Source: Roseateles aquatilis
GTDB lineage: Bacteria > Pseudomonadota > Gammaproteobacteria > Burkholderiales > Burkholderiaceae_C
DNA: 64,000 nucleotides
Assembly: GCF_002205645.1 (NCBI RefSeq)
Contig: NZ_NIOF01000015.1
Coordinates: 62,001-126,000 of the forward strand
Direction of reading: 5' to 3'
Part shown: piece after piece, positions 23,963 through 35,887 of the stretch
How the letters are laid out: each line of letters opens with the position of its first letter
Position numbering within the stretch: position 1 is the stretch's first letter
Made by a program: the position numbers and the translations under genes
Notes under the pieces: generated by a model
Databases searched by the model: none
Told to the model about the DNA's origin: nothing
What the model saw: only the letters and a program-made list of their open reading frames with translations

Positions 23963-24187
23963 CTAGAGCCGCAGAAGGTTCACGGTGTCGCCAGCAAGGC
24001 GGATCACTGCTTGTTCAGGAGACTCTCCTAGGCCGAGCAGGTCGCCGCCGGCAATGGTCAGCTGCGCTTCTACGCAGTCAACAACAGCCGTCCACCGAAT
24101 GGATCTGCCGCGCGCGTAGAAGTCAGCAGTGACTGCCACCCATCTTCGGGATGAACGGTGTTCGTGGCGAAACGTGATCTGCGCCAT
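23963..24187 (-). CDS. Small hypothetical protein
   Basis: A 74-residue frame from ATG 24187 (MAQITFRHEH...), ending SPEQAVIRLAGDTVNLLRL. Composition and codon use look genuine: it is a compact alpha/beta-sized protein with the segment IRWTAVVDCVEAQLTIAGGDLL. No family is recognised with confidence. It is transcribed toward the chemoreceptor gene. The remaining 216 bp up to 24403 show nothing. Confidence 0.5.
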   Translation of the reverse strand: MAQITFRHEHRSSRRWVAVTADFYARGRSIRWTAVVDCVEAQLTIAGGDLLGLGESPEQAVIRLAGDTVNLLRL

Positions 24188-24403
24188 GGGGCAGCCCGGT
24201 TTTCGAAGTTCTCGTTTCTACGCGGCGTAGTCTCCGCCGGATCACTCTCCCGCTCAGTCCCGGGACGCCGATCAGCTTCTGGCGGATGACGCACGGCATG
24301 CTAATGGTGACCAGGCCAACGCATGGAGATGGCTCATGGCAACTGAAGCTTTCCGATCATCATCTCTGAGGAACTGCGAGAACGGGAAACGTCGCATATT
24401 CTT

Positions 24404-25372
24404 CTAGGAAGAAAATCGGGCTCCGAAGTACTCTTCCTCTCTGGAGGCGCGAAGCGAATGCGGCGATGTGTCAGCAGCCCCCTTGGTTTGCTCGACAAGA
24501 GCAATCAAAAAGTCCAAACGTTCGCCGGCAGAAAGCGAGCAGAAAAATTTCTCTACCGCTTCCCCCCAAATGGCTTTTCGCTTGTCCGCAAAATAAACTA
24601 CGGCGGGCAAGAACGTGTACCATTTCAGCTCTCCTGCGCGCCATCCGGGCACAAGATGTTGATAACCAAGTGCGGTTAGTTGAACTGCACAAAATACGCA
24701 ACAATATTTATCAATCGATAGTCTTGGGCTTGGAGTCGCAACTCCTAATACTAATCTATTAGTTAGGCGCAACTCGGCGTGGCGTGCCGCTACTGCGCCA
24801 TACATGCTCTGGCCTGTCGGCAAACCCTGATTTGCCTTAAAGAATTCAATGGCGATTTCACTCAATTTCTCGCCATTTATAAAATTCAAGGCAAAAGCAG
24901 TCTTTTGACCAATTTTTAGAACTGCTTTGCAGTTGACGTATTGAGGAATTTGAGGAGTGTTTTGGAGTTGCCAATTTAGTTCGACATAAATTGTGCTTTC
25001 CTGGCTTTCAAGTTGAACAATTGTTTGTTGGGCTAGACTCTCGATCATATGATGCCAAGCCATTTTTGAATATTTGGCTATTTCTGCAACAATGCCGGCT
25101 CTCATTAGAATAAAATCGTCATCGTAAACTGCGTTTTGGTCTACGGTGTGCCTCCCACTGGTTCCGAGTGAGTGCCATTGGCTTGTTGCGAATGGATCAT
25201 AATGTTCACCCAAGAGGCGGGTGTAGACAAAATCCTTGGTTTCTTTGTTTAATAGAGCGAGGCCAATGTGCTCAGAAGTTCTTAAGAAGCTAAGAATATT
25301 CTTTGTGATCGGATCATGGGCAAATATTGAATTAAGTAGATTTCTATTTGGTGCGAATTCATTCGTCTTCAT
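24404..25372 (-). CDS. Deaminase-fold protein with F-box-like N-terminus
   Basis: A 322-residue protein from ATG 25372 (GGGGAG about 10 nt upstream). It is visibly AT-richer than everything around it, with many A/T third positions, so it was probably acquired. The C-terminal part has a zinc-deaminase signature: His198-Ala-Glu200 (RHAELRLTN) and Cys225-x2-Cys228 (DKYCCVFCAVQL). The arrangement resembles the OTT_1508-like deaminase family described from Orientia, other intracellular bacteria and fungi. Residues 19-58 (HDPITKNILSFL...LLNKETKDFVYTRLL) resemble an F-box helix set. The F-box likeness is weaker than the deaminase call. A toxin or host-directed effector role is inferred; no secretion signal or immunity gene was identified. 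Confidence 0.65.
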   Translation of the reverse strand: MKTNEFAPNRNLLNSIFAHDPITKNILSFLRTSEHIGLALLNKETKDFVYTRLLGEHYDPFATSQWHSLGTSGRHTVDQNAVYDDDFILMRAGIVAEIAKYSKMAWHHMIESLAQQTIVQLESQESTIYVELNWQLQNTPQIPQYVNCKAVLKIGQKTAFALNFINGEKLSEIAIEFFKANQGLPTGQSMYGAVAARHAELRLTNRLVLGVATPSPRLSIDKYCCVFCAVQLTALGYQHLVPGWRAGELKWYTFLPAVVYFADKRKAIWGEAVEKFFCSLSAGERLDFLIALVEQTKGAADTSPHSLRASREEEYFGARFSS

Positions 25373-25462
25373 TCTTTCACTCCCCTGTTGGAAGAATAGT
25401 AAGAAGCCGCGCGCGGCAAACGTCAATCAGCAGGTATCGCCGAATTCCTTGTCCACAGTGCT

Positions 25463-25710
25463 GCGTCGTCGGGCTAGACGACAATCCCTTCGTGCTGTCC
25501 AACGGTGCGCACATCTACTTTCTTGGCGCCAACGCAGGTACAGCCCACGTTTAGCAGTACAGCTTTTACTTTGACGACTTGTTTTGGTCGCACCGCTTCG
25601 AGGGGCTTAGCAAGGTCGACTCTGGCCTGCAGCCTTATGAGTCCTGGGTTAGTCGGGAAATGGCGGACCCAGTGATTGAAGGATTTCAACGTCTTCGTGA
25701 GAAGCTGTAA
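25463..25710 (+). pseudogene. Remnant of a P2-type phage terminase ATPase subunit
   Basis: In one frame, SNGAHIYFLGANAGTAHV, a TAG stop (25552-25554), then QYSFYFDDLFWSHRFEGL and SKVDSGLQ can be read. This matches the Walker-B-side region of P2 GpP-like large terminase subunits (FLGTNARTAQ ... NFYFDEFFW ... ELNKVASG). About 80 of roughly 590 residues remain, with an internal stop and no start. It is a prophage scar. Confidence 0.7.
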
Positions 25711-26463
25711 GACCTTCCAGTGCAACGTTTGCGTGTGGATCCGGCGTCAGCCGAGCCGAATCGCCTCAAGCTGTGGGCCGCTCACTTCCAGAAGTCTGTC
25801 GCCCAAGGCCGCAATGCCACGAGCACTAACGTGCGCTACGGCGCACTTCAACATGCTCAGCCCGAAGTCGCGCACCTAGCCAGTGACCGGCGGTGCATGC
25901 CGTCTGCCCACCCTGTCCAAGGTCGAAGACTGCTGCCGGCCCTTGCGCACGCCCCATCCCTGACCCCTGTCTCTCGAATCCCATTGCAGATCTCGGCATA
26001 GAGCGCAGCCGCTACTGGCACACCACCGCTGTCATCCGGATGAGTGCATCGCGCGAGGTGAATTACATGAGCGGCCGATCGACCAAATGAAAGAACTGAA
26101 GTGCTAGCCTGGAGCCAGCAGTAGCGCGCGTAATCCGATGCCCTTGGCGAACTCAAGCAGCGAACCGCTGGGGACACCATTGCCTTGAGCGCCTTGGTAT
26201 CCACGTCCACCATTTCTGATCGACTCGCTAATTGAGGCAGCCTCAATCCGATCACTAGAAGCGTTTTCACGCGACCTCAGCCTAGTGGAGACGAGCGCCT
26301 GACAGAGATTGCGGTCATGTGGCCAGAAAAAACTGCTTCGTCTGCTCGATCTCCTCAATCTTGTGGACGCATTGTTTTTCGGGCCTGGCGATCATCCAGC
26401 GCTGTCATCTGGCCATAGCTTCTTGATGCTCATATCGCCGAGGCTCTTAGGTGAAGTCATGAT
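25711..26463. other. No intact gene; degraded sequence
   Basis: Short open frames on both strands lack recognisable protein features and consistent codon bias. The stretch follows a phage terminase fragment and is most simply read as decayed mobile DNA. A good ribosome-binding site (GGGAGGA, 26464-26470) marks the start of the next gene. Confidence 0.6.
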
Positions 26464-26477
26464 GGGAGGACATGCAT

Positions 26478-28865
26478 ATGTCGGTGCTGGACCTGCAGTA
26501 CAACTTTTCCGGACTGTCACTGAAGGACCTCCTTGAGGCCCGAGACGCCTACCACTTCCACCTATTGAGCAAGGCCAATGTCGTTGGCACGGCTGTGGGC
26601 TACTACCTGATCCGCAAAACGGATCCCTGGCCCACGAAATCTGGCGAGAGCCGCTTGGGCCACGGAAAGCCCAAGACCCCTCGCACCCTCGACAACTCTG
26701 AGGTTCGCGACTATTCATGGCCTTGCGTTCTGGCCTTCGTCAAGAAGTGGGCGGCCGACGAGGAATTCGGTCCGGCCGGCCAGTACGACCCGTCGCAGAG
26801 CCTGCCGAAGACGCTGTATATGCAGGATGGCCGGGCGGTTCCAGTGTGTACTGTTGAGGTCGGTGAAACGCGGACGCACAAGGTGGCGGAGCCGGTGTGG
26901 GGGCCTCGGCCTTCGCATCCGTTGGGCGGCGGTTGCCCGATCATCGTGGAGCGCCAAGGGGAGCGTCGCTCCGCAACTGCCGGTTGCCTTGTGACCGACG
27001 GTTTCACCACCTATGCGTTGACAGCCAGGCATGCAAGTGGCGACGTGGGAACGATCGTGCGCAGCGTCTTGCGTGAGGGCGAGGATCGAATTGGTGTGAG
27101 CTCAGGAGTGAACCTGATGCGGCTACCTTTCAGCGAGGTATATCCGAACTACCCGGGCCGTCGCTCGTTCTCGGCGTTGGATGTCGGCCTTGTCACGCTG
27201 GACCGCCTCGAAGACTGGACCAGCAACACGTACGGTTTGCCGGCACTCGGACCTATGGCCGACGTGCATGAGGGCAACCTGTCGCTACGGCTTATCGACC
27301 AACCGGTCTTGGGCTACGGTGCGGCGTCAGGGTTGATCCGGGGCAAGCTCAAGGCGCTGTTCTATCGCCACCGGTCTGTCGGCGGGTTCGACTACGTGGC
27401 CGACTTCATGATCGCGCCGGGCGACGGCGTAGAGACCCGTCCGGGCGACTCGGGCATGGTCTGGCACCTGGACGTGACACCTCGCGACCAGAGGGTCGAC
27501 GTCATACCGCTGGCCAAGCGCGACCTGAGGCCGCTGGCCGTGGAATGGGGCGGCCAGGTCCTTGGAGACACCTCGCATAGCGCCAGCTATGCGGTCGCGA
27601 CTAGCCTCAGCACGGTCTGCCGTCAGCTCAACGTGGAGTTGGTCACCGATGTCGGCCGCGGAGTGTCCGGTTACTGGGGGCGTACGGGCCACTACTCCAT
27701 TGCCGCTCTGGCAATCACTGCAGTCCGGGATCCGAAACTCAAGGCATTGATGGAGACGAACTCCTCGATCCTGAGTTTCGACCTCGACGCCATCGAGCAG
27801 AGCGGGTTCGACGCCTCCGTCGGTGCCTTGAGCAGCGATGACAAGTTCGTGCCCCTCGCTGACGTTCCCGACGAAATCTGGAAGAAGCTGCCCAAGAGCT
27901 CTGGCGGCCGCACTGGCGGTCGCGACAGCTCAGGTGGAGGCGGCATGACGAATGGGCCGGAGCATCCGACGCACTATGCGGACATTGATGCAAAGCACCC
28001 GGACCAAGCGACCAACCTTCGGGAGCTCTGTCGGACCGACCCGGACACCTACCTCACGATCGAGGCTTGGCAGAATTACTACAAGCGCTTGACCGAAGTA
28101 GCAAAGGCCGAGGGGCGGCCGAAGGAGGCCAATCAGTATTCGAACAAATTGAAGAAGGGCCTGTTGCCGTTCCGGCTCTGGCAGTTTTTTGACACGATGG
28201 TCGAGTGCCTTAGCCGAAGCGACATCGTCGGTTTCGTAACTGCTGCCGGTATCGCCGCGCACTACATGGGTGATGCATCGCAGCCCCTGCACGGCTCCTA
28301 TTTGGCGGACGGGGACAAGTACCGCGATGGGCCGCGGGTCGATGCGGATGGCAATGCCATCCCTTATGGCGACGGCGTCCACAGCGCGTACGAAACCAAG
28401 ATGGTTTCTCGGTTCGCATCGACCCTGCTGCCAGAGGCCGTCAACGAACTCGCGGCGATGAATGAGCTACGGTTGTGTAAGAGCGGTGCACAGGTAGCTC
28501 GGGCCACCATTGAGCTGATGCATGTGGTCGCCGAGGAGCTTCCACCCCAGAAGATTCTGGACGTGTTCGAAGAGGCTGGCGGTGGCAGCAAGGTGGCCAT
28601 GCTCAAGGCTATGAACGATGAGCTTGCCGAACCCACAACAAAGGTTCTGGCTCATGGCGCTCGCTATCTGGCACTCCTATGGGACTCCGCCTGGTTCCAA
28701 GCCAGCAGCGCTGGCATGCAGCCTGCGTCGCCCGCGAAGCTGGAACCCAAAGACGTCAGAGCCAAGTACATCAAGAAAACCTTCGTTCCGTCGCTCACCC
28801 TCGACGAAGTGGGCGACGTGCTCAAGGTTGCGACTCACTCTCCACCGTCGGGCTGGCACCCATAG
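26478..28865 (+). CDS. Trypsin-like protease fused to S1/P1-type nuclease domain
   Basis: A 795-residue protein. GGGAGG 8 nt upstream selects ATG 26478 over ATG 26472. Residues 1-60 are a helical lead (LSLKDLLEARDAYHFHLLSK) of unknown role. Residues about 130-400 form a chymotrypsin-fold protease with a full triad: His185 (TARHAS), Asp235 (LDVGLV) and Ser325 (PGDSGM). After a Gly/Ser linker (about 480-490), residues 495-790 resemble S1/P1 nuclease or zinc phospholipase C, including HPTHYADID, His595 in HYMGDASQPLH and GVHSAYETK. No signal peptide is seen, so it probably acts in the cytoplasm. Protease-plus-effector fusions are typical of bacterial conflict systems. It converges on the six-gene subtilase/AAA operon. 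The GC content matches the surroundings. Confidence 0.78.
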   Translation: MSVLDLQYNFSGLSLKDLLEARDAYHFHLLSKANVVGTAVGYYLIRKTDPWPTKSGESRLGHGKPKTPRTLDNSEVRDYSWPCVLAFVKKWAADEEFGPAGQYDPSQSLPKTLYMQDGRAVPVCTVEVGETRTHKVAEPVWGPRPSHPLGGGCPIIVERQGERRSATAGCLVTDGFTTYALTARHASGDVGTIVRSVLREGEDRIGVSSGVNLMRLPFSEVYPNYPGRRSFSALDVGLVTLDRLEDWTSNTYGLPALGPMADVHEGNLSLRLIDQPVLGYGAASGLIRGKLKALFYRHRSVGGFDYVADFMIAPGDGVETRPGDSGMVWHLDVTPRDQRVDVIPLAKRDLRPLAVEWGGQVLGDTSHSASYAVATSLSTVCRQLNVELVTDVGRGVSGYWGRTGHYSIAALAITAVRDPKLKALMETNSSILSFDLDAIEQSGFDASVGALSSDDKFVPLADVPDEIWKKLPKSSGGRTGGRDSSGGGGMTNGPEHPTHYADIDAKHPDQATNLRELCRTDPDTYLTIEAWQNYYKRLTEVAKAEGRPKEANQYSNKLKKGLLPFRLWQFFDTMVECLSRSDIVGFVTAAGIAAHYMGDASQPLHGSYLADGDKYRDGPRVDADGNAIPYGDGVHSAYETKMVSRFASTLLPEAVNELAAMNELRLCKSGAQVARATIELMHVVAEELPPQKILDVFEEAGGGSKVAMLKAMNDELAEPTTKVLAHGARYLALLWDSAWFQASSAGMQPASPAKLEPKDVRAKYIKKTFVPSLTLDEVGDVLKVATHSPPSGWHP

Positions 28866-29368: not shown

Positions 29369-29857
29369 TCAGCGGACTGAAGGAATGAAGATGATGGCTA
29401 GGCCCACCGTCAGCGCGACGCCGATCGCCAGCCCGCCCGCGGCATATATGAGCATGCGCTGCTCAACCTTTTCTTGCTGCGCGTGAATAGCAATCTGGGC
29501 CTGGCGCACCGTGCGCTCGAAGGAGTTCGCCAGCTTGACGAGATCTTCCGTTTTGTTTTTCACGTCGGCAGCGATCGTCTCGCTTGCGCCTGTCACTGCT
29601 TCGTCAAATCGCTTTGCGACAGCTACGGCTACCTGTGTAGTCAGGCGTTCTTGAAGCGCGTTGGCGCACGCAACCAGACGTTCGCTGGCCTGGGCACTAT
29701 CCACTGCAGCCTCGTCGAGCCTCTTTACTGAGGCGGCGGCCTGCCCCTGAAGTTCCTCTGCATGGTCCATGATGTCGTCCAGCGCTTGCACGATGGCATC
29801 CAGATCACGGCGTGGGGGTCGTGCGGAGGATGGAGCGGGTGGAAGCGGTGCGTTCAT
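29369..29857 (-). CDS. Tail-anchored coiled-coil protein, last gene of the subtilase/AAA operon
   Basis: A 162-residue protein from ATG 29857 (a GTG at 29899 would add 14 residues). A Pro-rich N-terminus of about 20 residues is followed by an almost continuous helix (residues 22-130, heptad-like, no Cys or Pro) and one C-terminal membrane segment (IYAAGGLAIGVALTVGLAIIFI) ending SVR. The topology suggests a C-tail anchor with the coiled coil in the cytoplasm. No family is recognised. It follows the PD-(D/E)XK-like gene by 66 bp on the same strand. It could position the system at the membrane or act as a membrane effector; both are guesses. Confidence 0.7.
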   Translation of the reverse strand: MNAPLPPAPSSARPPRRDLDAIVQALDDIMDHAEELQGQAAASVKRLDEAAVDSAQASERLVACANALQERLTTQVAVAVAKRFDEAVTGASETIAADVKNKTEDLVKLANSFERTVRQAQIAIHAQQEKVEQRMLIYAAGGLAIGVALTVGLAIIFIPSVR

Positions 29858-29923
29858 GGGCAGGGGTAGGTGATGAGATTTTGGGCTCCAGTGGAGCACC
29901 GATGCGTAGACCGCCGTTCAAAA

Positions 29924-30715
29924 TCAATGTTCGCGACCATTGTCCCGGTTGCCAGGCCCGGCCCTTTCGGGAGCGCTCCGGCGCTGCAGGGTGGTCTGCT
30001 TCTGCAAGACCCGCGATTGGCGCTCCGCCTCAAGCAAGCGCGCTGTCTCACGCTGGCGAACCTCCTCCAGATACCGCAGCTCTAGCATCCGAGCGGTACC
30101 GCGAAGATCGGCAAAGTTGGGCACCGGCAAGTATGTAATCCCCCCAGTACCGCCATCGCCGCCGGCGTTCACTCCGACGAGCAGACCGCCGGCGTTGTAA
30201 CGTCGCACGCCCGCCAGCGTTTCCACGATCGCCATGTAGTCGGCAAGCTCGTCCTCGTCCGTGAAGCGCCCCTTGCACGCTTGCTGCACCAGGTCTTGCG
30301 CGAATGCTTCCATCGGGATCGCCTGATCTCCCGTCTGATGAAGATACGGGCGCACCGTCATCGGGTAATGCTGCGGCGAAGGGGATTGGCCCTGTTGATC
30401 GGGTCCGTTGACCAAGTACCAATGCACTTGGCGCGAGATGGCGCGCAGCCGCTGCCGCCCGCGCGCCGGGCTTGTGGCGGCCAGGAACTTCCTGCGTTTG
30501 CGATGCTCCTTCTTTTCATCACCTCCGGTGCGCTTGAATTCGATCAGGCGCCACACGCCGGGGAACTGCAGCATGACGTCTCCAAGTACAGGATCGGCCG
30601 GCGTCTGCTGCAGCAGGTTGACGCAGGCAGGTGCCGGGCCGGCCTGTCTCCCCATCGCCAGACCCAAGCTGTAGAGGAAGTTGCCAATGATGATGTTCTC
30701 GTACGGATGGAACAT
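29924..30715 (-). CDS. PD-(D/E)XK nuclease-like protein
   Basis: A 263-residue protein. Residues 40-61 (ADPVLGDVMLQFPGVWRLIEFK) fit the PD-(D/E)XK core: Asp46 on one strand, and Glu59-Phe-Lys61 on the next after the expected spacing. A basic stretch follows (KKEHRKRRK), as often seen after such cores. The C-terminal third is Gln/Arg-rich helix, probably coiled coil. No overall family is recognised, so nuclease activity is an inference from the motif. It is fifth in the operon, 69 bp after the gene encoding the unknown beta-rich protein. Confidence 0.65.
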   Translation of the reverse strand: MFHPYENIIIGNFLYSLGLAMGRQAGPAPACVNLLQQTPADPVLGDVMLQFPGVWRLIEFKRTGGDEKKEHRKRRKFLAATSPARGRQRLRAISRQVHWYLVNGPDQQGQSPSPQHYPMTVRPYLHQTGDQAIPMEAFAQDLVQQACKGRFTDEDELADYMAIVETLAGVRRYNAGGLLVGVNAGGDGGTGGITYLPVPNFADLRGTARMLELRYLEEVRQRETARLLEAERQSRVLQKQTTLQRRSAPERAGPGNRDNGREH

Positions 30716-30784
30716 GCGTCTCCAGCCAATGTTGTCAGGGGCAGGGGCGACAAGACGACCGCGCGTGCTGCGGGTTGGTACCTG

Positions 30785-31675
30785 TTAGTCCTCTGGATCC
30801 GCGACGTAGTCGGAGATACCAAACACCATGTAGTTGAAGTCGACCGGCTGGCCTTGGTCCTTCGCTTGAAGCACTTGCGCATCGGTGTTCCAGACAAACG
30901 CGTCCCACTTCCAATCCGCGCTCAGGTTGCTTTGCACCACGAGGTAAGTGCCGAGCTGGAGTCGCGCGGACGACACGTTCGCGCCGAAGTCCAGCCCCAG
31001 ATCGAACGAGTGAACCTGCTTGTTGAACCGGCGCTTGAGCACGTTCTTCACGACGGCTTCCGCCAGGGACGATAGCGGCTTGAGCGCAGGCTGCGTCGTG
31101 GTCAGCAGCTTCAGGCCGCTTTGAAATGCCGGGCTGTCGAGCGTGCTCAAGACAGTTTCGTCGCCGTCGCTGGACACATTGATGGTGCGGCCTTCGAAGG
31201 AGATCCCGTTGGCTCCGACCGTGAGGCCGAGGAACAGCGGCACGCCCCCGATCGCGGCGGCGTCCTTGTCACGTGCGCGAAAGCGCAGCGCGAACTGCAG
31301 CGGCTCCGCCGCGCTCTTTGCCTGGTTGCGGCCTGCAAACTCACACAGGATGTTGTGCGTGCCAAGACCTGGATAGTTGTGAACGTAGAACTTGTCCAGC
31401 GTGATCTTGATGCGTTTGCCCACCAAGGTCTTGTCGCCCGGAATCTGACTGAGGCCGACGATGTCGTGACGGGGACCGACGCCGCCTGGCGGGATGTAGC
31501 CGAGTACCGCGCCGGTGTGATCGTAGGGCGAGGCCGCCCCTATAAGCCCTTGCCCGCCAGCCATGCCTCCAACGTAGCGCGCTGCTCCCTTGAGGTCATT
31601 GATGCCGGTGAGGTACTCCGAAATCTGAGGCGCCGCTAGCGCGCCAAGCGAGTCTGCGGGGTCGAATTTGCTCAT
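30785..31675 (-). CDS. Beta-rich protein of unknown function coupled to the subtilase
   Basis: A 296-residue protein from ATG 31675. The ATG overlaps the subtilase stop (ATGA) and has GGGAGG upstream, so translation is probably coupled. Residues 65-290 alternate short hydrophobic strands (KITLDKFYVHNYPGLGTHN, LQFALRFRARDKD, LFLGLTVGANGISFEGRTI, LQLGTYLVVQSNL), suggesting a beta-sandwich or two. No catalytic motif, signal peptide or membrane segment is seen. No family is recognised. Its tight coupling points to a direct role with the protease, as substrate, inhibitor or effector. Confidence 0.8.
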   Translation of the reverse strand: MSKFDPADSLGALAAPQISEYLTGINDLKGAARYVGGMAGGQGLIGAASPYDHTGAVLGYIPPGGVGPRHDIVGLSQIPGDKTLVGKRIKITLDKFYVHNYPGLGTHNILCEFAGRNQAKSAAEPLQFALRFRARDKDAAAIGGVPLFLGLTVGANGISFEGRTINVSSDGDETVLSTLDSPAFQSGLKLLTTTQPALKPLSSLAEAVVKNVLKRRFNKQVHSFDLGLDFGANVSSARLQLGTYLVVQSNLSADWKWDAFVWNTDAQVLQAKDQGQPVDFNYMVFGISDYVADPED

Positions 31676-34320
31676 GCTGCCCTCCCTGCGCGCACGGTGT
31701 CGCGTTGCTGCGCACGTGCCGCGATTGCCTGTTGAACTTCCTGGTACAGCCCGGTACGCACCGACTGCGCCATCTCCATCGTGATGGCCAGCGCGTAGGG
31801 CACTGGCTGCTTGTTGAGCGAGCGGTGCCTCGACATCGCTTGCACGCACACAAAGATGCCGTCGGCGTTGGCCGCTTCAAGCAGCGTGGATCCGCTGAGC
31901 TTCACGTGCACCAGGGTGCCTTTCTCGCATGTCGTGATCGTGGGCTGCGTGCTCTTGTCGCGCTCCACACCGTCCCAGAAGTCTCCCTTGCCGGTGCCAC
32001 TGACCAGCCGCAGGGAGACGCCGCGGTAGTCGATGGTCGTGGGCAGGATCGGGGTGGCCCACGCAAGGGTCATCGTGATGGTGCGGAGTTCCTTGTTGTT
32101 GAGCATGGCCTTCGGAATCGGCAGGCGGTACTCATGGCGCTCGTCATGCGCGATCTCATCGTCGGCGAGCAAGGTGATACGGTTGTCGTCGCCGCTGATG
32201 ACGCGCGTGATGTCGAGATTGCCGTAGCCCAGGAGCTTGGCGATGGCATCGCGTCGTCGCTGCCAGTTCTCCTGGTGCTTGAAAGATTCCTCGAGGGTGT
32301 CGCCGATGTCGCCCCAGCTGCTGCCATGCGCCAGCAGCGCCTTGAGGATGACGGCCCGCGTACGTTTGTTCAGCCAGGTCGTCGCATCACCCGCGTAGGC
32401 CAGGTCCACAGCGTCGGCGAGTTGCACGCCAGCCCGAGTGACGAGAGCCGCAGCGTTGCTCGTGCCGGCCATGCGCGTGGTGTGACGCAAGTTGCCTGTC
32501 GTCGACGGTGCAGCCACCAGTTGGCCCACGCGGACCGACCGGTTCGGGCTGACGGTGACACCGCCGCCGTCGACGTTCGAGGCCACGACCGCGAAGCGGC
32601 CGCCCGGGTGCAGCAGATCGGGCTTGAGACTCTTGTTGACGCCGAAGCCCAGCGCGGAGGCCAAGTTGGGCATTTGCTGCGTCGGATAGGGATCGATGCC
32701 CGCGCCAAAGTTTTCGGGTGACTCGTCCACGTGCGCGGCGCCGACGGTCAGCCCGTTGATGGACTCCGCAGGAGAGAGGATGCCGCGCTGCCCCTTGGAT
32801 GCCTCAAGCGAGGTGATGATCACAGCCTCCCGCTCCGCCGCCTCGGCCGCTTCGAACTCGGCGGCGTCGTTGTACTGGTTCAGTGGGAACGCGGAGAAGA
32901 TGTTTCCTGCGCTGATGACGAACAGCAGTCTGTGGGTGAAGCTGTAGTAATCGAGAAGCGCGGCCCAGGGCGACGGCCGCCTGGCAAACGGAGCAAAGGT
33001 ATCGCCCAGCGAGTGGTTCACGATCGTGACGTGCCGCAGGTCAGGCTGCGCCTGTGGATCTGCGTTGACGATGGCCTGAAGGGCGCGGTGAATCACGCCG
33101 ATGGCGAGCTTATTGCGGGGCGTCGACTCCTGAGGGCTCTGAGGGTCGCCGGTCAGCACCGGGATCAAGGCCACCTTGCGCGTGAGTGCGGGCTGGTCCT
33201 TGTGGAGGTCGCCATGTAGGACGAGGGACGCCATCGCCGTGCCGTGATGGCGAGACGAGACTGGCACGTCCGCCGTCTTCACATCCACTTCATGCACGGC
33301 CAGGCGTCCTTGCAGCGCGGCGTGACCAGCGACTGGATATCCGTCCAAGATCGCTGCGACGCAGGGGCCGGTGAGCACCGGGACATCTCCCAGATCTCGC
33401 AGGTTCGCGTCCTGCGGTCGATCGGCGCTGGGCAAGTAGGCCGATTGAGGCCTGATGCTCATGACGTCATCGAGCCGGGCGAGTGATGCGTCCGAACGTT
33501 GGACCATGTCCAGCGCCACGGCCGCGGGAAGCCTCACCAGTGCGCCTTGATATCCGATCTCGTGGATTTCGACGAAGTCCACCCGGGCACCGCCCGTTTG
33601 CTCGAGCAGCGCGTCAAGTGTGGCCACCGCCCTGTCGCGTTGGCGTTCATCCTTGCGGTACCAGAAGTTGAACTCGATCAAGACCTCCCGGTCGGGCTCC
33701 TCCTCCAGCATGGCTTTCACATAACGGGCGATGCTCGGATCCATGCGGTCCCGGACCGACCACGTCCGCAAGTCCAACAAGCAGGAAAACATGTTCCAAA
33801 GCGGGGCAAGGCCGCGGGGCGCTTTTCCGCCGAGGAGTTTTTCCTTCTTAAAGGCTTTCCACTGCGCGAGGAGCTTGCTGAGGCTCTCCTGGGTCGGCAT
33901 GGTCATGTACATGACCTGCGCCTTGGGCGCGGCGGATTCGTCAGTGACGTCTGCGAGATCCTCCATCAGCTGCTCGCCGTCGAGTTCCGCTTCGGTGACG
34001 GACGCGTCGGGCAGCTCCTCCTCGATCAACCAGTTGAAGCCGAGGGCCTGCACTGCAACATCAAAGCGTTCGATGGAGCCGCTGACTTCAAAGACCAGGG
34101 CGCGCTCGGGCACGACCATGCGCGGATCGGTCGAGACGTCGACCCCGCCGGCTACGTTCTTGAGGGACTGCTCAAGGTCAGCGAACGCTTGCTCGAATCG
34201 CTCAATCTGCCTTTGGTACGGAAGCTTCTGAGGTGCCTGAGGGGCTCCGCCCCCCCGCTTCAGGCGAGGCAGTTTTTCGTGCTCTCTTGCGAGGCGCACG
34301 ATTGGATAGTTTCGGTTCAT
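31672..34320 (-). CDS. Subtilisin-like (S8) serine protease, IetS-like
   Basis: An 882-residue protein. The first 310 residues are a mixed N-terminal region with an EVSGSIERFDVAVQAL segment. The S8 catalytic domain follows with Asp326 (AAILDGYP), His359 (RHHGTAMAS), oxyanion Asn473 (VISAGN) and Ser621 (MAGTSNAAAL); all are present. Residues 680-870 form a C-terminal beta-rich domain. No signal peptide is seen, so it is cytoplasmic, unlike secreted subtilases. Its start lies 119 bp inside the end of the AAA ATPase gene. S8 proteases paired with an AAA ATPase are the IetAS arrangement, reported as plasmid-incompatibility and anti-phage modules; assignment here is by architecture and order. Confidence 0.9.
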   Translation of the reverse strand: MNRNYPIVRLAREHEKLPRLKRGGGAPQAPQKLPYQRQIERFEQAFADLEQSLKNVAGGVDVSTDPRMVVPERALVFEVSGSIERFDVAVQALGFNWLIEEELPDASVTEAELDGEQLMEDLADVTDESAAPKAQVMYMTMPTQESLSKLLAQWKAFKKEKLLGGKAPRGLAPLWNMFSCLLDLRTWSVRDRMDPSIARYVKAMLEEEPDREVLIEFNFWYRKDERQRDRAVATLDALLEQTGGARVDFVEIHEIGYQGALVRLPAAVALDMVQRSDASLARLDDVMSIRPQSAYLPSADRPQDANLRDLGDVPVLTGPCVAAILDGYPVAGHAALQGRLAVHEVDVKTADVPVSSRHHGTAMASLVLHGDLHKDQPALTRKVALIPVLTGDPQSPQESTPRNKLAIGVIHRALQAIVNADPQAQPDLRHVTIVNHSLGDTFAPFARRPSPWAALLDYYSFTHRLLFVISAGNIFSAFPLNQYNDAAEFEAAEAAEREAVIITSLEASKGQRGILSPAESINGLTVGAAHVDESPENFGAGIDPYPTQQMPNLASALGFGVNKSLKPDLLHPGGRFAVVASNVDGGGVTVSPNRSVRVGQLVAAPSTTGNLRHTTRMAGTSNAAALVTRAGVQLADAVDLAYAGDATTWLNKRTRAVILKALLAHGSSWGDIGDTLEESFKHQENWQRRRDAIAKLLGYGNLDITRVISGDDNRITLLADDEIAHDERHEYRLPIPKAMLNNKELRTITMTLAWATPILPTTIDYRGVSLRLVSGTGKGDFWDGVERDKSTQPTITTCEKGTLVHVKLSGSTLLEAANADGIFVCVQAMSRHRSLNKQPVPYALAITMEMAQSVRTGLYQEVQQAIAARAQQRDTVRAGRAA

Positions 34321-35272
34321 CTTCCCTGATTTCCGCTTCTTGTGGCGGCCGCACGATGGCGCGGTCCAAGACCTGCCGCACGGCTTCAGGGGCTGACAAA
34401 CCTCCCTTGGCTAGGACCAGTTTGCGTCGCACGTCCAATGTGAACGCCTCGACCGCAGACATGTTCTCTCCTGCCATGTGGCTTGCAAATTGTTGCGTAC
34501 TGATACCAATCGGTCCAGCTCCCAGGGATTGCTCAAAGCGTTCAAACCACACTGCAAGTTCCGCAGGGCCGGGGCGCCCAATCTCGAGCTTGATCTCGAA
34601 CCGGCGCCACACTGCCCGGTCTAGCAGTTCAGGGTGATTGGTCGCGCACACTACGACCGCGTGGCTGGGCAACCGATCCATTTGCATGAGCAGCGTGCTC
34701 ACGACGCGCTTGATCTCACCAGTTTCCTGCGAGTCGCTGCGTTCCTTGCCCACAGCGTCGAACTCGTCAAAGAACAACACGCAGGGGTTGAGCGTGGCGT
34801 GGTCGATCAGCTTGCGAAGACGATTGGAGGTTTCGCCAAGGAAGCTGTCCACGATCGCGTCATAGCGCACCGACAACAACGGTAACGACAGCTCCGCGGC
34901 GATGGCCTCGGCCAGGCTTGTCTTGCCATTGCCTGGAGGGCCGACCATCAATATCGTGTGCCGCGGCTCTAAGGAGTGCTCTCTGAGCAGAGCCGCTTGC
35001 GAGTATTCGTAAAGGAACTCCTCGATGTCCGTCACGAGCTCAGGGCGCAGCACCAAGTCGGCCAGGCGCCGACGGGGGACTAACTCGTACACGAGTTCCG
35101 CAATACGTTCGGGAACGTTGCTGGTACCAACCGGGCTGGACGATTGGGGCGCCGATACAGCTGGCCGATCCAGACCGGGCAATTGACGTTGCGCAGCCTT
35201 GCGCTTTGAGTCAGCGATGATGGCCTCCATCGTGCGCTGTAGCGCGCGGCGGTCCCCCTGAACGTTTCCCAT
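34202..35272 (-). CDS. AAA+ ATPase, IetA-like
   Basis: A 356-residue AAA+ protein. Walker A GPPGNGKTS (111-119), Walker B VLFFDEFDAVG (Asp169-Glu170), the sensor-1-type ATNH and an RRFE arginine-finger-like motif are all present. The N-terminal 90 residues are helical, and the C-terminal 45 are charged and low-complexity (NRAPRKRARKTASPE). ATG 35272 has GGGGAG upstream and starts 3 bp after the stop of the HTH gene. Its 3' end overlaps the subtilase gene by 119 bp in another frame. In IetAS pairs the ATPase is thought to control the protease; that is carried over here by analogy. Confidence 0.9.
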   Translation of the reverse strand: MGNVQGDRRALQRTMEAIIADSKRKAAQRQLPGLDRPAVSAPQSSSPVGTSNVPERIAELVYELVPRRRLADLVLRPELVTDIEEFLYEYSQAALLREHSLEPRHTILMVGPPGNGKTSLAEAIAAELSLPLLSVRYDAIVDSFLGETSNRLRKLIDHATLNPCVLFFDEFDAVGKERSDSQETGEIKRVVSTLLMQMDRLPSHAVVVCATNHPELLDRAVWRRFEIKLEIGRPGPAELAVWFERFEQSLGAGPIGISTQQFASHMAGENMSAVEAFTLDVRRKLVLAKGGLSAPEAVRQVLDRAIVRPPQEAEIREDEPKLSNRAPRKRARKTASPEAGGRSPSGTSEASVPKAD

Positions 35273-35275
35273 CCC

Positions 35276-35671
35276 TTACTCCCCTTTTTCTTCAATTCGG
35301 CTGACCGAAGGTGTTCCGGGACCAGCGACGCTCCACTGCGGCTGAGCGCCTGCTTCCAACGCATCAATGAGCGAGACCACCCGCGTGCACAGATCGCGCA
35401 GGCCTTGGAGCTCTGGTGCAAGTCCTGGGCGCGACGCGTGCGGTTTCTGTTGCTCGGCAACACCCGTTCCTGCCGTTTCACTTTGCAGCGCCGACAGGCT
35501 GCGGTCCAACGCCAGCCGCGTTCGGGAAATCGCACAGCCGGAGTTTGCAAAACGCCAAAGCGTGACGCGATTGACGCCAAGCTGGCGAGCCGCGGATGCA
35601 ACACTTCCTGTGAGCAAAATGAACGCCGCTACGCGCGACAGCAGATGATTGTCTCTAGTAACGCTGGGCAT
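35276..35671 (-). CDS. HTH protein, probable operon regulator
   Basis: A 131-residue protein with an N-terminal helix-turn-helix (about residues 20-46: TGSVASAARQLGVNRVTLWRF), of the Fis/sigma-54-activator type. The rest is helical with a Pro-rich middle. ATG 35671 has AGGG 8 nt upstream. It is the first gene of the operon, 3 bp before the AAA ATPase, and lies 43 bp from three perfect 11-bp repeats. The simplest reading is an autoregulator binding those repeats; the sequence alone does not prove it. Confidence 0.75.
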   Translation of the reverse strand: MPSVTRDNHLLSRVAAFILLTGSVASAARQLGVNRVTLWRFANSGCAISRTRLALDRSLSALQSETAGTGVAEQQKPHASRPGLAPELQGLRDLCTRVVSLIDALEAGAQPQWSVAGPGTPSVSRIEEKGE

Positions 35672-35714
35672 TGCGATCCCTTAAACACCTGAGCAGGCTA
35701 AACCACGCACGCCG

Positions 35715-35747
35715 AAAACGCAACCAAAACGCAACCAAAACGCAACC
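35715..35747. repeat. Three perfect 11-bp direct repeats, candidate operator
   Basis: AAAACGCAACC occurs three times head to tail with no mismatch. An 11-bp period places each copy on nearly the same face of the helix. The array lies immediately upstream of the HTH-AAA-subtilase operon, where a regulator or initiator would bind. Confidence 0.92.
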
Positions 35748-35887
35748 ATCACCCGTGCACCGTTTCACTTTTCGGAAATCTGAATTGGCGCGGTCGCATG
35801 CGTACGATGCCTACGCAGATTGCCAACGAAGGTCAGTAGACGTCACCGGGAGGGCAATTTCGACGCAACAGCACGTACCCTTGGCCC

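Follow-up and report, generated by a model that had tools for sequence, protein, structure and literature searches.

Organization of the locus

A stretch of 64,000 nucleotides from Roseateles aquatilis (contig NZ_NIOF01000015.1), referred to as the window throughout, was analyzed around a group of genes at positions 29369-35671, for which an earlier note had proposed a single six-gene operon built on an IetAS-like AAA ATPase and subtilase. The segment from 35671 to 30785, encoding a helix-turn-helix (HTH) protein, an IetA-like ATPase, an IetS-like S8 subtilase and a protein designated g4, is probably one four-gene unit and a distinct subtype of the IetAS family. The other two genes, g5 and g6 (29369-30715), are a separate two-gene module next door. 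All six open reading frames (ORFs) were confirmed on the minus strand, and the features are as follows.

35695..35748, minus strand: putative promoter-operator of the operon, with 11-bp repeats and -35/-10-like boxes
35276..35671, minus strand: HTH protein, 131 aa, with a Fis-type HTH (PF02954 at 19.5 bits, short of its cut-off of 22 bits)
34202..35272, minus strand: AAA+ ATPase, IetA-like, 356 aa (PADLOC profile PDLC04232, E 3.6e-120; PF00004, E 1.1e-33); by analogy the probable antitoxin
31672..34320, minus strand: S8 subtilase, IetS-like, 882 aa (PADLOC profile PDLC04233, E 1e-260; PF00082, E 4.7e-16); by analogy the probable toxin
30785..31675, minus strand: g4, 296 aa, without a Pfam, NCBIfam or PHROGs family; fourth core gene
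29924..30715, minus strand: g5, PD-(D/E)XK-like, 263 aa; first gene of the separate two-gene module
29369..29857, minus strand: g6, coiled-coil-like, 162 aa, with a C-terminal hydrophobic segment; second gene of the separate module

The HTH protein, g4 and g5 all stay below the Pfam and NCBIfam cut-offs. The HTH and AAA genes are 3 bp apart, the AAA and S8 genes overlap by 119 nt, and S8 and g4 are joined by a 4-nt overlap (ATGA), while the gaps further downstream are 69 bp (g4 to g5) and 66 bp (g5 to g6, the start of g6 being the ATG at 29857). The tight packing of the first genes, the ATGA coupling and the wider downstream gaps noted previously were thus reproduced.

Genes inherited together with g4

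The earlier note had suggested collecting homologues of g4 and asking how frequently the six genes occur together. A total of 20 g4 loci were compared, consisting of the window, 16 genome contigs, two plasmids (L026 and L027) and G311 (L042), the last obtained in a survey that covered 349 genomes of the order. S8 was located directly upstream of g4 in 17 of the 20. The three loci without an adjoining S8 are L020, in which g4 is intact and S8 is reduced to a 99-residue C-terminal remnant, L023, with a g4 fragment and no S8, and L024, where the contig starts inside g4. L009 retains the C-terminal half of S8 only, and the contig of L010 starts within S8. S8 is complete in 15 loci, the window included, and the AAA gene stands in front of it in all 15. 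A relative of the HTH gene occupies the same place in 12 of these 15 loci, and a lax search for it in the other three (L016, L026 and L027) found none.

S8 and g4 overlap by 4 nt in six of the 15 loci, the rest ranging from one shared base to a gap of 22 nt, and the AAA/S8 overlap measures 59-137 nt in 14 loci (L027, with no start codon found at the position used, is outside this count). A long AAA/S8 overlap is probably present also in the pTi-type locus L029. Evolutionary distances of g4 track those of S8 with r = 0.88, compared with 0.91 for S8 and AAA (14 loci; L026 was omitted, its g4 being split by a frameshift). In the 12 loci with the HTH gene these values are 0.84 and 0.93, and the HTH protein tracks S8 less well (r = 0.71).

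Downstream of g4 the likeness stops. Within 3.5 kb or less after g4, no related proteins were detected between any two of 18 loci, indicating that the shared unit ends at g4; no fifth shared gene was detected in the loci compared. In none of the other 19 g4 loci was g5 seen in the DNA covered, whose length after g4 is about 8-10 kb for most loci and shorter for L024 (4.7 kb), L014 (2.8 kb) and L015 (945 nt).

Surveys starting from IetS

Among 72,556 plasmid records, 112 carry an IetS relative and two carry g4. The IetS proteins of the two g4 plasmids are the closest (52% and 41%), and the next IetS (35%) is without g4. In the survey of the order, IetS was matched in 16 of the 349 genomes, and g4 was present only in the genome of the window and in G311, whose IetS scores of 1322 and 1152 bits compare with 580 bits or less for the other 14. 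In a survey of the class, 19 of 369 genomes gave an IetS match, and g4 was not seen among the genes adjoining IetAS in the 18 genomes other than that of the window, three of these 18 loci lying near contig ends. A tree of 36 IetS sequences, built by a quick method, has a branch (SH-aLRT support 100) that separates the 15 with g4 from the 21 without it, so that the presence of g4 takes a single change, against a mean of 11.8 when shuffled. The idea that g4 is a divergent form of genes lying beside other IetAS pairs was tried with a lax g4 profile on 22 neighbouring proteins and rejected (best E 0.61).

Other neighbours of IetAS were observed in the class survey. Restriction-modification operons adjoin or enclose IetAS in six of the 18 loci: L085 has the order hsdM-ietA-ietS-hsdS; in L072 an HsdS-like gene (21.8 bits against a cut-off of 22) shares 4 nt with ietS; L087 has a fragment of HsdM type beside IetAS; and in L078, L080 and L081 Mod-like (N6_N4_Mtase) methylases come directly 3' of ietS. 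A KwaB-like gene lies near IetAS in L082. In another IetAS lineage, L073 and L074, an HTH_17 gene (74% identical between the two loci) directly precedes the AAA gene; it is unrelated to the HTH gene of the g4-type loci and is a separate gain.

The IetAS-type core

The identification of the core as an IetAS-like ATPase and subtilase, as originally proposed, is borne out by the PADLOC IetA and IetS profiles, which match nearly over their full length on adjoining genes in the order A-S. The protease triad (D326, H359 and S621) does not vary among the 11 aligned S8 proteins, nor do the key residues of Walker A (GPPGNGKT, 111-118; residues G111, G114, G116, K117 and T118) and Walker B (D169-E170) among the 11 AAA proteins, and the S8 and AAA rows used contain zero inner stops; the motifs described as intact are indeed so. 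The NCBIfam equivalogs IteA and IteS (NF042959 and NF042956) score 220.5 of 510 and 58.2 of 900 bits, below the curated cut-offs, and the pair is therefore not filed under them. Gao et al. in 2020 reportedly assigned an anti-phage role to IetAS, in agreement with the PADLOC and NCBIfam names. A search of S8 against PDB by sequence gave no match at E 0.01, and that of IetS against INPHARED phages gave none.

Upstream region of the HTH gene

Just upstream of the HTH gene, three perfect 11-bp repeats of GGTTGCGTTTT are located at 35715-35748 (TRF: 3.1 copies, 100% match). The last repeat overlaps a -35-like TTGCGT, which is followed 17 nt on by a -10-like TAGCCT (35695-35723). Other genera have the repeat core ahead of the HTH gene as well: the most shared upstream 7-mer is present in 8 of 10 loci, counted without the near-copies L014 and L019, against at most 5 in 100 shuffles. 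The word GTTGCGTT, which was derived from the same sequences on which it was counted, was found 11 times, counting both strands, within the 1,920 nt that precede the HTH gene in 12 loci, seven of which contain it; the remaining 274,140 nt hold 7 occurrences. It was absent from the 700 nt before the AAA gene in all three g4 loci without the HTH gene, and it was present in one of 21 IetAS loci without g4 within 600 nt. An element of the form TTGCNN-N16-18-TANNNT, a pattern composed after inspection of the sequences, starts 52-60 nt before the HTH start in 9 of the 12 loci and is absent from L015 and the two Methylopila loci. This region may thus be a promoter with its -35 box inside an operator of the HTH protein. 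Since the promoter-like site before the HTH gene is overlain by a GTTGCGTT-type motif that is common across genera, the HTH protein is probably an autoregulator. The common promoter motif offers a handle on the control of the operon.

Predicted fold and role of g4

Relatives of g4 in the protein database number 305 at E 1e-3 or better, including a close one (92%). The predicted fold is a helical N-terminus followed by a C2-like beta-sandwich with a helical insert. The helical segment 171-213 is conserved, partly at low model confidence, and the variable stretches between the conserved blocks are short (roughly residues 62-80 and 263-278). g4 has no hydrophobic span, the best Kyte-Doolittle value being 1.54. 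By sequence, nothing credible was found in PDB, and 37 pattern stretches in IMG/VR yielded no confirmed relative. The sole viral-library structural match at E 0.001 or better is BFVD A0A1V0SF49, an uncharacterised giant-virus protein of Hokovirus HKV1 (Foldseek E 3.1e-8, probability 1.00), which extends over most of the length of the g4 family.

As to its role, a regulator or adaptor of the protease is the first choice, with about an even chance of being right; the main substrate or effector of the protease comes second and is distinctly less likely. A sensor would be a guess. In the parts consulted of the open-licence literature, no description of an HTH or g4 partner of IetAS was found.

The neighbouring g5-g6 module

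The D46...E59-x-K61 motif of g5 is conserved in all 30 aligned relatives. g5 has a close relative (89%) in the protein database; against PDB by sequence it gave no match better than E 0.37, and its relative in L032 gave none against INPHARED phages. g6 carries a C-terminal hydrophobic segment (Kyte-Doolittle 2.44 over 143-161), and the label coiled coil comes from reading of its sequence rather than from a coiled-coil program.

The earlier note had taken these nuclease-like and membrane genes as parts of the IetAS operon. Because all six genes lie on one strand with short gaps, and the minus strand shows no terminator-like site from g4 to the g6 start, co-transcription of the six is possible. 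The distribution of the pair points the other way: in 9 of 10 g5 loci examined, g5 is followed by a g6-like gene without IetAS (the tenth is cut by an insertion sequence), and two g5-g6 pairs occur in a single genome of the same family that has no g4. The gene directly 3' of g5 is g6-like in L046, L132 and L133 (phmmer E 4.9e-10, 5.6e-10 and 8.6e-8) and more divergent in L032, L039, L040, L090, L091 and L092. The 10 loci are partly dependent: three of them (L031, L091 and L092) are Pseudomonas aeruginosa plasmids that have genes in common, two (L032 and L090) are plasmids of Pantoea, and L132 and L133 belong to one genome; the weak g5 matches L038 (E 3.2e-5) and L041 (E 9.5e-14) are not among them. 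Given this occurrence without IetAS, together with the failure to find g5 in the other g4 loci, g5-g6 is a separate module.

Some neighbours of g5 were also seen. By reading, the L041 match lies amid fatty-acid-type genes. An MscS-like channel gene and a Sel1-repeat gene precede the pair in L132, as does a Sel1-like gene (below cut-off) in L133, and from these contexts the module itself may be larger.

Surroundings in the window

Converging on the six genes is a plus-strand gene at 26472-28865 for a 797-aa protein matched by the PADLOC 'trypsin-like' profile PDLC03017 (6.6e-127). Its C-terminal part shows a weak S1/P1-nuclease-like match below the Pfam cut-off, so that a protease-nuclease fusion is possible; no relative was seen in the g4 loci. 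The G+C content is 0.52 at 24000-26000, compared with 0.59-0.72 in the rest of 14-46 kb, and the 340-aa ORF at 24404-25426 matched no family. An insertion hotspot may lie at 24-36 kb, a region flanked by the genes for a chemotaxis receptor and a response regulator. In an empty-site comparison of the flanks with 40 relatives, both flanks were found to hold methyl-accepting chemotaxis repeats, which match all over.

Discussion

The four-gene locus is a genuine subtype, so far without a name, of the known IetAS family. This model rests directly on the gene order, the co-inheritance, the conserved motifs and active sites, and the single IetS branch with g4. Some points weigh against it: the clustering on the IetS tree is partly built in, because most of the 15 sequences were collected through g4; the IetS-led surveys, though agreeing with the tree, are small (four g4-type loci); and a generic sigma-70 promoter scan found none in the region upstream of the HTH gene. 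Of the extended IetAS proposed at the outset, the HTH protein and g4 stand as conserved partners, and g5 and g6 fall away as parts. The likely unit of four genes is now told apart from its two neighbours, which matters for cloning.

In SGI1 the subtilase is toxic and is neutralised by the ATPase (PMC5006074), and the same is described for mycoplasmas, where loss of the ATPase alone is lethal according to earlier work cited there (PMC8562856), as far as the parts consulted of these two papers go. By analogy, the AAA+ protein would hold or remodel the subtilase and keep it harmless. The HTH protein would bind the GTTGCGTT-type repeats that lie over the -35 box of its own gene and keep the operon low, and the long overlap of AAA with S8, together with the S8/g4 junction, may couple translation. 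An invader might upset the balance, upon which the freed subtilase would cut cell proteins and the cell would stop. g4 would bind the protease as a dedicated partner, and S8 may need g4 or act on it. The co-inherited g4 family is a candidate partner or substrate of IetS.

Besides an anti-phage system, the four genes could be a stabilisation (addiction) module of a plasmid or island, a reading with a real though lesser chance. pTiC58 ietAS and SGI1 sgiAT are tied to the stability of their own replicons (PMC5006074 and PMC8562856, in the parts consulted, pTiC58 through citations therein); two g4-type loci are on plasmids, and 50 of the 112 IetS plasmids are typed conjugative. On the other side, the G311 locus lies on a single contig of 2.6 Mb, the 16 genome contigs are not labelled plasmid, and L009, with its truncated IetS and g4, is beside the Zorya genes ZorD (1391 bits) and ZorC (466 bits). 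Stabilisation and anti-phage roles are compatible, and neither excludes the other.

A more tentative proposal, which we consider rather unlikely, is that the AAA+-controlled cytosolic subtilase has one dedicated client, the C2-like g4. If so, release of the protease would give a specific, perhaps membrane-directed response rather than general proteolysis.

Unlikely to a further degree is a g4 that acts as a proteolytically activated effector, from which the IetS cut frees a part that binds or breaks the membrane in a gasdermin-like manner. C2-type sandwiches often bind lipids, and the predicted fold, the position of g4 right after the protease and the conserved helical segment are in line with such an effector; the missing hydrophobic span and the shortness of the variable stretches between conserved blocks argue against it. 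No gasdermin, pore-former or protease inhibitor was among the structural matches listed for g4, which excludes nothing.

A single six-gene defence operon, in which the PD-(D/E)XK nuclease and the membrane protein serve as effectors controlled by S8 or AAA, is paralleled by Hachiman and AVAST, where a pro-nuclease is activated by a trypsin-like protease (PMC12799240, in the part consulted), yet it is very improbable and is rejected on co-occurrence in the loci examined.

Comparison with known systems

Compared with Hjc/RecU-type PD-(D/E)XK enzymes, g5 of the neighbouring module differs by a long C-terminal helix and by the paired coiled-coil-like/transmembrane gene. With the Hachiman/AVAST and canu nuclease-protease pairs, the four-gene unit has in common that a protease is encoded in a defence operon next to a possible partner protein; those pairs consist of a trypsin-like or caspase protease and a metallo-beta-lactamase (MBL)-fold nuclease, as far as the source was consulted (PMC12799240), whereas a subtilase and a predicted beta-sandwich are present here. 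SgiAT of SGI1, IetAS of pTiC58 and TA132/3 of mycoplasmas likewise combine an AAA-ATPase antitoxin with a subtilase toxin, but are described, in the parts consulted, as two genes, in contrast to the four found here (PMC5006074 and PMC8562856). The pTi-type IetS of L029 (Rhizobium rhizogenes) is 32% identical and falls outside the g4 branch. The likeness to the two-gene IetAS of PADLOC lies in an S8 subtilase gene that is directly preceded by an AAA+ gene, with the motifs intact. No PADLOC model matches the HTH protein, and g4 gives a chance-level match only (E 0.053). The present locus differs from that system in an additional upstream HTH gene with its own operator-like repeats, in the downstream g4, and in an IetS branch formed by the g4-bearing loci themselves.

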